A stretch of 64,000 nt of DNA from positions 50,818,290 to 50,882,289 of the forward strand of contig NC_065541.1 in the NCBI RefSeq assembly GCF_932294415.1, given 5' to 3'. Shown in pieces: positions 28,646 to 36,142 of the stretch. Position 1 is the stretch's first letter; each line of letters opens with the position of its first letter. Under the pieces are notes generated by a model. That model saw nothing but the letters and a program-made list of their open reading frames with translations. It was not told the origin of the DNA and did not search any database. Made by a program: the position numbers and the translations under genes. The stretch comes from Quercus robur. Its lineage: Eukaryota; Streptophyta; Magnoliopsida; Fagales; Fagaceae.

Positions 28646-29311
28646 ATGACGATCCACTCGGTGGTGATCCAGAAGCTTCTGAGCACAAACGCTCACCTCG
28701 GCCGCCGCGTCGTGGCGGACCACCTGAAACCCTACGCCTACGGCATCCGCAATGGCATGGCCGTTCTCGACTCCGACAAAACCCTAATCTCTCTCCGCAC
28801 CGCCTGCGCTTTCATCGGAGCCCTAGCTCGCAACAACGCTCGCTTTATGTTCGTCAACACCAACCCTCTCTTCGATGAGATCTTCGACCAGATGACCAAG
28901 AAGATCCACCTCTACAATCCGAACCAGAACACTCTGTGGCGCACCGGTGGTTTCCTCACCAACAGTCGGAGCCCGAAGAAGTTTCGATCTCGGAACAAGA
29001 AGCTCTGCTTCGCTCCTCCTCAGCCGCCGGATTGCGTTGTTATTCTCGATACTGAGAGGAAATCGTCGGTCGTGTTAGAGGCCGATCGGCTTCAGATTCC
29101 GGTGGTGGCGATCGTTGATTCGAGTATGCCTTTGGATATTTATAAGCGGATTGCGTATCCGGTGCCGGCCAATGATTCGGTTCAGTTCGTGTATTTGTTC
29201 TGTAATTTGATTACAAAGACTTTTTTGGCGGAGCAGAAGCGGTTTGCGAAACATGATTCTATTGCTGTTGACGATGATTCTTCGAAGATCGAAAATACGT
29301 ATGAAAATTGA
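28646..29311 (+). CDS. RPS2: Mitochondrial ribosomal protein uS2m, short form
   Basis: An intronless 221-aa reading frame starting [19 protein letters not shown], with S2-family signatures [48 protein letters not shown] and [11 protein letters not shown]. Its length is close to the nucleus-encoded mitochondrial S2 of Arabidopsis as I recall it (about 219 aa). uS2 helps form the small-subunit body near the mRNA exit region. There is no long separate presequence; the N-terminus itself may direct import. Codon use is richer in G/C than the downstream exons, and absence of introns is expected for a gene moved from the mitochondrion. This form is made only if the potential intron 29299-29387 is retained, when translation stops at TGA 29309-29311. 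Confidence 0.9.
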   Translation: MTIHSVVIQKLLSTNAHLGRRVVADHLKPYAYGIRNGMAVLDSDKTLISLRTACAFIGALARNNARFMFVNTNPLFDEIFDQMTKKIHLYNPNQNTLWRTGGFLTNSRSPKKFRSRNKKLCFAPPQPPDCVVILDTERKSSVVLEADRLQIPVVAIVDSSMPLDIYKRIAYPVPANDSVQFVYLFCNLITKTFLAEQKRFAKHDSIAVDDDSSKIENTYEN

Positions 29312-32300
29312 ATTGTAGCTGTTTGTGTTAGTTCTTTGTTGTTTCTATTTTCTTAATTTGAAGTGATTGAATGGTGGATTTGGACAGTGAGGAAGCAAAA
29401 CGCGTCGAGGAGAGTGAGAATGTTGGGGTTTCTCCTAAGGATGAAGTGGTTGTTGTTCCTTATGAGAGCTTGGCACCCATTTCTCAAGGTAAATGAATGT
29501 CTTAGTTTTGTGATGGTTAAGATGAGCTTCGGGATTCAATTAACGTGAGTCTTTATGTCGATGCAGATAGAGCGGAAGCTAAGGAGCTTCTGGAGAAGCT
29601 TGTCGTGTTGAAGTTCAATGGAGCTTTGGGGAAAGAGATGGGTTTCAATGGCCCTAAGTAAGCATTAGTGTTATTGGTAATCTTGACAATGATAGGCATT
29701 GCATAATTGAAACATTTGATGCTACTTTTCGATAGACAAAGATGAATTCAAATTAGTCACTTACATTTCAAAGAGTGGGGGTTTGATTGTTACATAGAAG
29801 AATCTTTTGCATTTGAGTCGTTTGGTGGATGTGTTTCAACTCCATTATTTTATTTATTTATTTGTTAATGCAGGTCAGTGATTGAAGTGTGTAAGGGGTC
29901 AACAGTTCTTGACTTGATTGTTAAACAAATTGAGGTCACTTTTTTGCTCATTCCACTGTACATAGTCAATGTCCACTAGTTGTTTCTTTCTCATATTGTA
30001 CCATTCTAATTGTTTGCAGTCTCTAAACTCCAAGTATGGATGCAATGTTCCTTTGCTTCTTATGAACACAGCCAAAACAAATGATGATACCGTGAAGGTG
30101 AATGTTCTCTGTCATTCCCATATTGTTTCCTTTTTTCAGATAGTGTCAGAATCTACTTATTCAAGCTTGATGTAATTTAGGTTGTAGAGAAATATCCCAA
30201 CTCAAACATTGTGACGCTGAATACATCAGATGGACAGGCTAGTGAGAATGAAGCGTATGTCATGCTTTAATCTGTATCTCTCTTTTTATTCATTAGCATA
30301 TGATTATTGGGTATGAAAATGATGCTTCTCTGCTATTTGAAGAAGTCCATTACTGTATTCTAATGCTTTACAGTCCTCTCAGATCCATCTTGTCAGCTAC
30401 CTTTTGTTTTGGGAAAATTACATTTACCTCCCTTGAGCTGTTGCAAATTATGTTACATCCTCTCCTGCTTTTGAATTAGCTGGTAATCTCCCTTAAATTG
30501 GAAAATGTTGTACACAAGTCATCTCAATAAACACTAAGAACCATGGTTTTCAAGTTCTTTTATTTATTTACCCACAAAAAACCAAGGAAAATAACTCCCC
30601 CACACCCCCCCCCCCCCCACCCTTGCTGGACCTTTCACACACACACACACTTATATTTCAATTGTACATGATTGTTCATTGAAAGAAAGGGCCTTGGAAT
30701 AACAGTTGCATTCCCTTCTCCAAACCTAAATTTTTAGACATTTCTATGTAAATGGTAATTTTTAAGGATGGTTGCATGATTAAACTTCTGCTGCTACTAA
30801 ACCTCTTTTCGAGTCTTGGGCTCATTTACAGTAATAGTTGCAAGAGCTGATGTTGTGTATTGAAAATGTTATTTAGGTCTTTCTGGAACCAAGCTTATTT
30901 GTGAAGAGTGTGATTATCCAAAAATTGCTAATCTAGGAATAAAGTACTGAGGCCTGAATGTTATCCGAAAAAATTCTTGTTGGTCTAGTTGTATTGTTGA
31001 ACTCATTTGATGAAGATGTGACTTACTTTTTTTTTTTTTTTTTTTGAGAAGAAAAACTACTCGTTATATTAAAATCAAGAGTTTGGAAAATCATCCAACA
31101 CAAAAGACATGATATCCGTTGGAACACACTCCAACCAGATTTGAGACGAAAGAGAGGATCTCGCTCGTTGGGCTAAAGCATGCGCTACCGCATTGCCTTG
31201 CCGACCTACATGAGCGAAAGAAATACTCTGAAAAGAGTTTGAATGAGAAAGGATATCTAAGATAAGATGCCCCCCACTAGAATGGTCCAAACCAGATCCC
31301 TTTAAAGCATTAACCACTGATTGAGAGTCACCCTTGCAGACACACTGAGTATGTCCCAATTCTGCAGAAAAAAATATCGCACGCCTTGCCGCAAGGAGTT
31401 CAAGGATCTCCACTGTTGGAGGTTTTTCAATTTGCTCGGATAGAGCTGCCACCACCTGACCCTCACAAGACCGAATTACCACGCCCAAACCCACCCTATC
31501 AGACTCCCCAAACATTGCTCCGTCATAATTAATCTTAACTGAACCGGCTGCCGGCGGAGACCACCTGCGAGGGATAACCCGTTTCCTGAGAATAGAGATA
31601 CATAGATTGGGTTTTTTTTATTAGTTTGATAAGGCAGTATCAGTCATGTTTATAGTTATGATTTTGTGAATTCTTGAATGGTATAAGTTTCTTGTATAAT
31701 ATGAAGTTTAAATGCATACTTTAACTTCACTTATCAAAAAAAAAAAAAAAAAAAAAACGCATACTTCAACTTCATAACCCATGTCTCCCCCCTTATATGT
31801 TATATAGTGTCTTCTAGTTGGTATGCCTCAATAGTTGTCTTGGTTTGAAATTTATGAAAGGTTTATTTACTAATTTTATTTAGTAAAAGAATTTTTAATC
31901 CTTAATAGTATAACCTACCTTATATATATATATATATTATAGTAGTTAATAATTTTATACCTGATTATTTTGTAATACAATGTGACCTTAAAGCTATAGC
32001 TATTACCACCCCAAATTACTTATTTATATGTCAAGCATTATGCATACCTTTTCCCTATCCACCTTAAGAGAACTTGCATTTTTCTTTTTGAACCAATGGC
32101 TATCTTAGTGATATTTTGTCCCTTATGTATTTCTTGTTTATGTTCAAAATTGAATATTTCTTTATTATGACTTGGGATAAAATGTATGAACTGAGAACTT
32201 CCCCCCCCCCCCCCCCCCCTTTTCTTTTTCTCAGTTCGTTTTTTTCTGAGTAATTGTATTTGGTTTAATTTGATGAGTAGTATGAAATTTTAATTGATCC

Positions 32301-35300: not shown

Positions 35301-36142
35301 TAAGGGAGTGCTCTGATTACTTCATTGTCTGGTCTGGCGATATGCTAATTTTCAAGTTCTTGTATCTTCATTTATTTTTATATAAAAAATTGCAGATTCT
35401 ATTGCTGGGATATGAATTGTTAGTTATTTGAGTTTTATTTTATCCCTTACCAAAGACACGAGGAGAATATTTCATCTTGCCTGTTTGTCCAGAGGAAGTC
35501 ATGTTTCTGTTCCAGACATGAGGGTTTTGTTATAACTTATAAATTAGGAACTGTTCTGATTCTCTCTTATCTGTGTGTGTCCAGGTGTGACCATTGCATG
35601 AGACTTCTTTTACATCTTAAATTTGTTGTTGCATTGCCTACATGTTTGCATATAATACATCTGTTAATTTTAGTGCAAAATGCAAGTTATGTTTATATCA
35701 ATGAAAATAAGATTTGTTGTGTTTAGTGCAAAATGCAAGTTTTGTACGACTCATAGAGTTTCTTGGATTTTATTGTTTCTTATATCTATGCATGTTAATG
35801 GTTTCAGAGGATTATATTTCTTGTGCCACTCTTTATATTGAGTTTCTTTCACTTTACTGTCTCTTCAACTTCTTTCCCATCCTTTGATGGTTTTATTTTT
35901 GAAGGGGAGAGTAAATATTGTTGCAAAACCTGGGATGAAATTGGAAATTCCTGATAGAGCAGTACTCCATAATAAGGTAAGTCACCAACTTACAATATCT
36001 TGAGTGACTTTCTTCTTTCGAGGAAATATAACTTTCAGATAATAGGGGTGGGGGGGAGTTGGTCATTAAGTTCACTTTTTACTTGAAATCAACATTGTTT
36101 TATTTTGTTATACAGGACATCAGTGACCCTATTGACATTTGA
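28646..36142 (+). CDS. Predicted fusion: uS2m joined to a UDP-glucose pyrophosphorylase-like domain
   Basis: Exon 1 is the uS2m frame, cut at 29298 by an in-frame donor (AATAC|GTATGA). Exon 2 starts at 29388 after ACAG and continues in the same phase. The further exons are 29388-29488, 29567-29657, 29874-29934, 30020-30097, 30181-30254, 32323-32395, 32541-32598, 32704-32750, 32834-32899, 33993-34025, 34274-34311, 34395-34470, 34548-34604, 34691-34774, 34906-35004, 35094-35198, 35905-35976 and 36116-36142. All keep the frame, giving 630 aa. From about residue 235 the protein follows plant UGPase ([60 protein letters not shown]), but UGPase's first 45 or so residues and about 20 internal residues are missing. 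Loop residues differ ([10 protein letters not shown] against the usual LNGGLGTTMG), PPGHGD is lost and NTNNLW reads TDTRSLW. The domain is therefore probably not a normal UGPase. Whether the fusion is expressed is unproven. Confidence 0.75.
31029..31600 (-). mobile_element. LINE 3' fragment (RNase H domain) in a UGPase-like intron
   Basis: Minus strand encodes the terminal RNase H-like domain of an L1-type plant [56 protein letters not shown] and [18 protein letters not shown]. The frame is open for about 170 codons. The T18 run at 31028-31045 is the poly(A) tail on the other strand. It is strongly 5'-truncated. A clear TSD was not found. It accounts for part of the 2068-bp intron between exons ending at 30254 and starting at 32323. 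Confidence 0.85.

Follow-up and report, generated by a model that had tools for sequence, protein, structure and literature searches.

In grasses, the mitochondrial ribosomal protein gene rps14 resides in an intron of the nuclear sdh2 gene and uses the first sdh2 exon with its targeting peptide, and the conventional sdh2 mRNA persists (Figueroa, 1999; Kubo, 1999; both as cited in PMC1543663). C-terminal extensions of plant mitochondrial rps2 products have been reported to be cleaved off, and the nuclear-encoded RPS2 of Arabidopsis is imported without a transit peptide (PMC11792336). Here we describe a locus of the oak Quercus robur (contig NC_065541.1; positions 28646-36142 of a 64-kb stretch, referred to as the window, whose numbering is used throughout), in which the coding sequence of the mitoribosomal protein uS2m continues in frame, across a candidate intron, into a gene related to UGPase. 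The reading that we favor, with a probability of roughly 0.6, is that the locus is a single transcription unit that would encode a uS2m–UGPase-like fusion protein, with or without some plain uS2m.

As in the grass rps14-sdh2 case, a mitochondrial ribosomal protein gene has moved into a multi-exon nuclear gene and would be expressed through the splice sites of its host. Unlike in the grasses, rps2 lies upstream and replaces the first exons of the host, and the host part is apparently a dead enzyme. By analogy, rps14-sdh2 is the nearest precedent, with a polarity that appears to be reversed in oak. The locus also resembles the extended plant mitochondrial rps2 products in that uS2m has additional C-terminal sequence, but those extensions belong to mitochondrial rps2 genes, whereas the extension here would be a UGPase-like domain of nuclear origin. 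With the cytosolic plant UGPases, i.e., the ordinary oak copy and the proteins in PDB entries 2icx, 1z90 (labelled AT3g03250) and 5weg (presumably the barley enzyme), the UGPase-like part shares the sequence family and, with the ordinary copy, 17 intron positions; unlike them, it lacks exons 1-2, carries the substitutions K262N, K366N, K256T and G94A, and is fused or adjacent to uS2m. No uS2m-UGPase fusion was found in the literature as covered by the titles and opening parts of abstracts listed and by term look-ups in PMC8222925, PMC10743687, PMC13308715, PMC12672651 and PMC9161816.

Structure of the uS2m–UGPase-like locus

The rebuilt chain consists of 19 exons with a total of 1893 nt, that is, 631 codons for 630 amino acids and a stop, in agreement with the initial annotation, which had reported this length free of stops and frame breaks; the terminal stop is the only one, and all 18 introns have GT-AG ends. 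In Pfam searches, the single 630-aa translation carries both Ribosomal_S2 (PF00318, 5.2e-25) and UDPGP (PF01704, 1.1e-102). The proposed in-frame GTATGA donor is present at 29298/29299 in phase 2, 13 nt before the end of the uS2m stop, and the intron that follows, described as U-rich and 89 nt long, indeed has this length, with 47% T and 6% C. The annotation had missed two features, namely an in-frame ATG within intron 1 and an alteration in the region of ordinary UGPase exons 7-8, where the frame is kept nevertheless. The parts of the locus are listed below, all on the plus strand; exons 2-19 were assigned by alignment with the ordinary UGPase gene.

28646-29298, plus strand: exon 1, uS2m coding, 217 codons and 2 nt (PF00318; uS2m chain of 6xyw)
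29299-29311, plus strand: last codons and terminating TGA of uS2m when it is read by itself (221 aa); these nucleotides fall within intron 1 in a spliced transcript
29299-29387, plus strand: intron 1 (fusion intron), donor TAC/GTATGA, acceptor GGACAG/T homologous to the ordinary UGPase intron-2 acceptor
29371-29373, plus strand: in-frame ATG within intron 1, from which a reading frame of 418 aa with the UGPase-like part alone could start
29388-29488, plus strand: exon 2, equivalent to ordinary UGPase exon 3
29567-29657, plus strand: exon 3, GGLG changed to GALG (G94A) in what is presumably the nucleotide-binding loop
29874-29934, plus strand: exon 4
30020-30097, plus strand: exon 5
30181-30254, plus strand: exon 6 (74 nt), which stands for ordinary exons 7 (51 nt) and 8 (74 nt)
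32323-32395, plus strand: exon 7, PPGHGD changed to PSDHDM
32541-32598, plus strand: exon 8
32704-32750, plus strand: exon 9, 80% identity to the ordinary copy
32834-32899, plus strand: exon 10, K256T and K262N (potato Lys263), preceded by an intron absent from the ordinary UGPase gene of this genome
33993-34025, plus strand: exon 11
34274-34311, plus strand: exon 12
34395-34470, plus strand: exon 13
34548-34604, plus strand: exon 14
34691-34774, plus strand: exon 15, K366N (potato Lys367)
34906-35004, plus strand: exon 16
35094-35198, plus strand: exon 17, 80% identity to the ordinary copy
35905-35976, plus strand: exon 18, 79% identity to the ordinary copy
36116-36142, plus strand: exon 19 and stop (also from the exon chain)

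Origin of the locus

Searches of the 786-Mb assembly, in which all match counts are lower bounds, yielded at least 24 UGPase matches among 32 candidates scored, and the matches listed map to a full-length ordinary gene on C2, the present locus and three sites with partial copies on C3. The ordinary gene (C2:61154836-61163083) has 20 exons and encodes 475 aa in the model built here. When the UGPase-like part was aligned with this gene and Arabidopsis UGPase, 252 of 410 residues were identical to the ordinary copy, and 17 of the 18 introns of the locus, the fusion intron included, coincided in alignment column and phase with introns of the ordinary gene, which puts the match to a UGPase gene beyond chance; sequence similarity to UDPGP and gene structure both point to the UGPase family.

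In the ordinary gene, the acceptor before exon 3 interrupts a Ser codon (that of SGEAQ, phase 2), and exon 2 of the locus begins at the same codon in the same phase, so the acceptor before 29388 is, judging from this alignment, the inherited UGPase intron-2 acceptor. Given this correspondence in position and phase, UGPase exons 1-2 have been replaced by uS2m. The comparison thus specifies which of the usual first exons are missing, as the initial annotation had noted in general terms, and supports its proposal that a transferred mitochondrial gene landed on a duplicate of UGPase and captured its 5' end: the transferred gene sits within a resident nuclear gene, as in rps14-sdh2. The uS2m tail gave no signal as former UGPase intron sequence (295 of 500 shuffles were equally good), and no significant similarity beyond the acceptor was detected between intron 1 and ordinary intron 2 (114 of 500 shuffles).

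The single unshared intron, between E and V of EYCMEV and separating exons 9 and 10, is present in the locus and absent from the ordinary UGPase gene. Poplar UGP genes are reported to have 21 exons (PMC10743687), which is also the typical number in the UGP-A group (PMC8222925), against 20 in the ordinary oak copy, so this intron may be ancestral. That exon 6 arose by joining ordinary exons 7 and 8 directly found little support (p 0.194, 2000 shuffles). Somewhat better supported is a decayed, skipped relic of ordinary exon 8 in intron 6: when the search was confined to the initial 200 nt of the intron, 21 of 2000 shuffles scored equally well, but the support is lost over the whole intron (p 0.095, 200 shuffles). 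Two features of this intron (30255-32322) are:

30321-30353, plus strand: what may remain of ordinary UGPase exon 8 after decay (shuffle tests)
31078-31617, minus strand: retroelement fragment with RVT_3 (Pfam)

The three partial copies on C3 (L030:6534-8731, L031:8075-8639 and L032:6337-8622) correspond to exons 15-17 of the locus. Their intron sites are 9-12% diverged, and the donor after exon 15, GT in the locus, is AT in all of them; in L030 and L032, a common gap has removed the last part of exon 16 together with its donor, and exon 16 of L031 contains an in-frame stop. Judged by eye, reading frames near these copies may resemble leucine-rich receptor proteins.

Selection and catalytic residues in the UGPase-like part

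Compared with the ordinary copy over 410 codons, the ratio of nonsynonymous to synonymous rates (dN/dS) is 0.24 by NG86 and 0.16 by both YN00 and maximum likelihood (ML), with dS of 1.15, 1.59 and 1.69, respectively; these values are pairwise, include the constrained ordinary branch and are rough, given dS above 1. By thirds, dN/dS is 0.29, 0.27 and 0.17 (NG86) or 0.21, 0.18 and 0.10 (ML), with a YN00 value of 0.38 for the middle third. With Arabidopsis as the outgroup, 115 of the 410 positions changed in the locus copy only, compared to 16 in the ordinary copy only and 18 in Arabidopsis only. When neutral mutation was simulated to 115 replacements in 200 runs, the mean number of stops was 6.7 and the minimum was 1; the locus copy has none. 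The low dN/dS, the lack of stops and the frame that remains intact across the change at ordinary exons 7/8 make it very probable that the reading frame is kept as a protein; the UGPase-like part looks selected rather than like debris.

In potato UGPase, Lys263, 329, 367, 409 and 410 are among the lysines implicated in binding and catalysis (PMC2327258). Mapped by exact spacing (66 and 104 residues), Lys263 and Lys367 correspond to K262 and K366 of the ordinary copy, both of which are Asn in the locus copy, and Lys329 is retained; in the 409/410 pair, for which the mapping is off by one residue, one Lys is kept and the other position is Gly. The set of catalytic lysines expected of an active UGPase is thus incomplete. 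The ordinary, Arabidopsis and human enzymes have 229 residues in common, of which the locus copy keeps 152 (66%), with the other 77 changed or deleted; of the 132 positions conserved between the ordinary and Arabidopsis enzymes only, it keeps 80 (61%), hardly fewer, so the widely conserved sites have no special protection. Conservation is highest in exons 9, 17 and 18 (80%, 80% and 79%) and lowest in exons 10 and 12 (32% and 33%). Judging from these residues, the UGPase-like domain is probably no longer an active enzyme.

The uS2m part

Residues 1-201 align with the plant mitoribosomal uS2m chain 6xyw_Ba (219 aa), from what we take to be an Arabidopsis structure, with an E value of 7e-83 and 128 identities in 201 positions. 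Together with the PF00318 match, this amounts to full-length similarity to plant uS2m, and the stand-alone reading, of 221 aa, ends with its own stop at 29311; hence the uS2m half looks complete, fused or not.

The search for nuclear uS2m genes gave this locus alone (one match among five candidates scored, a lower bound), so no second nuclear gene that would free the present copy was detected in that set. The assembly apparently lacks a mitochondrial genome, its sole cox1-family match being short and below the family cut-off, so a mitochondrially encoded rps2 may exist; the gene table for the mitochondrial genome of Quercus litseoides includes no rps2 (PMC12401974). Unless the mitochondrial genome encodes uS2m, the locus must still supply it. 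Three further full-length uS2 matches, with 236-aa frames (C5:37618524-37619171, C42:17669-18316 and C2:66296830-66297477, one with a stop), are presumably plastid-type rps2 from plastid DNA in the assembly.

One fusion protein or separate products

The fusion is favored by the inherited acceptor, the phase-2 donor, a gap free of signal motifs between the two coding parts, motifs at both ends of the joint unit and the likely decay of an intron-retaining transcript. A transcript that keeps intron 1 would have the uS2m stop 177 nt upstream of the following exon junction, and a plant mRNA with a stop that far upstream of a junction is prone to nonsense-mediated decay. By simple motif match, the 59-nt gap (29312-29370) contains no telo-box, site-II, TATA or poly(A)-type motif, a search that did not cover a promoter inside the uS2m reading frame; no poly(A)-type hexamer occurs in 29290-29491, and two weaker ones are found at 29492 and 29538, in the following intron. 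The initial annotation had seen neither room nor signal for a separate promoter; this holds for motifs in the gap, but the ATG at 29371 provides a second start. The motifs outside the unit are:

28465-28614, plus strand: likely promoter region by motif match (weak), with site-II-like GCCCA at 28465 and 28497 and the telo-box AAACCCTA at 28607
36357-36672, plus strand: poly(A)-type hexamers 3' of the UGPase stop, AATAAT three times, ATTAAA and AATAAA (motif match)

Site-II-like and telo-box motifs are typical of plant ribosomal and mitochondrial protein genes; the matches are simple and nonspecific, with 52 site-II-like and six telo-box occurrences in the window.

Several observations weigh against the fusion. 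The junction splice sites are weak: scored with a matrix derived from the 36 introns of the locus and ordinary UGPase genes, the donor reaches 2.75, with 5 of the 36 reference donors lower, and shares fourth place with 29363 among the 42 GTs in 28646-29385. Of the 36 reference acceptors, two fall below the score of the junction acceptor, -1.18, which three other AGs in 29330-29479 (29362, 29445 and 29330) exceed; the best of these, 29362, would yield a 65-nt intron with a stop two codons on. In addition, uS2m is plain and short elsewhere: the two plant chains matched have 219 and 212 aa, and in Cicuta the protein has 208 aa and its gene no introns (PMC11792336), so the fusion is not general in eudicots.

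A real alternative is that two proteins are made, uS2m ending at 29311 and a UGPase-like protein starting at ATG 29371, from a transcript of its own that begins inside the uS2m frame or from read-through RNA. The completeness of uS2m at its own stop and the weak junction sites speak for it. The ATG directly follows an in-frame TGA (29368) and opens the 418-aa frame through which the UGPase-like part could be translated alone; an ATG would occur in a random stretch of five codons with a chance of about 8% (5/64). We nevertheless consider this arrangement unlikely, given the motif-free gap, the poor context of the ATG (GATTGAATGGT, with T at -3), the eleven ATGs in 28646-29370, including the uS2m start, and the persistence of the UGPase acceptor at the matching position. 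That the locus yields plain uS2m only, next to a decaying pseudogene that is open by chance, would explain the 115 changes specific to the locus copy compared to 16 in the ordinary copy, as well as the lost lysines, and has a parallel in the partial, broken copies on C3. The low dN/dS (albeit with the constrained ordinary branch included), the absence of stops, the GT-AG ends of all 18 introns and the frame that stays open where the protein lengths differ make this quite improbable. Finally, alternative splicing or polyadenylation could produce both isoforms, with plain uS2m going to the ribosome and the fusion serving some other role, as both coding ends are valid and rps14-sdh2 offers a precedent (PMC1543663). 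With none of the listed poly(A)-type hexamers in 29312-29488, even if plant signals are loose, and with the early stop that intron retention would leave, such a division of roles seems very improbable.

Under the favored single-unit reading, mitochondrial rps2 moved to the nucleus and took the place of the first two exons of a UGPase duplicate, as the intron homology shows. Transcription would start from the uS2m promoter, and splicing would join 29298 in the correct phase to 29388, using the UGPase intron-2 acceptor that has survived there. The 630-aa product would consist of uS2m, an acidic linker and the UGPase-like domain, and uS2m would probably direct the whole chain into mitochondria, where the tail of about 45 kDa could either stay attached to the small subunit or be removed by cleavage. 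Some transcripts may end at the uS2m stop at 29311 and give plain uS2m.

Surroundings of the locus

Other retroelement fragments in the window lie at 1471-2151 (minus strand) and 21473-21742 (plus strand); together with the one in intron 6, they match RVT_3 twice and zf-RVT once (Pfam). Neighboring genes on the plus strand, also by Pfam, are TCF25-like (5610-6527), an MLO C-terminus (25889-26170) and a cytochrome P450 (62715-63998). A Yae1-like reading frame (39181-39615, minus strand) and an L3-like one (42300-42980) have matches just under the curated cut-offs.

Implications

It is conceivable, if doubtful, that in this lineage the mitochondrial small subunit permanently bears a folded, non-catalytic UGPase domain on uS2m, perhaps as a UDP-sugar sensor or as a platform for docking on the side where the mRNA exits. 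If the fusion is real, a metabolic enzyme would have been recruited as the tail of a ribosomal protein via organelle-to-nucleus gene transfer, and the composition of mitoribosomes could become lineage-specific by this route. The locus would then be rps14-sdh2 in reverse, with the incoming gene providing the promoter, the start and the targeting, and the host gene as the passenger.

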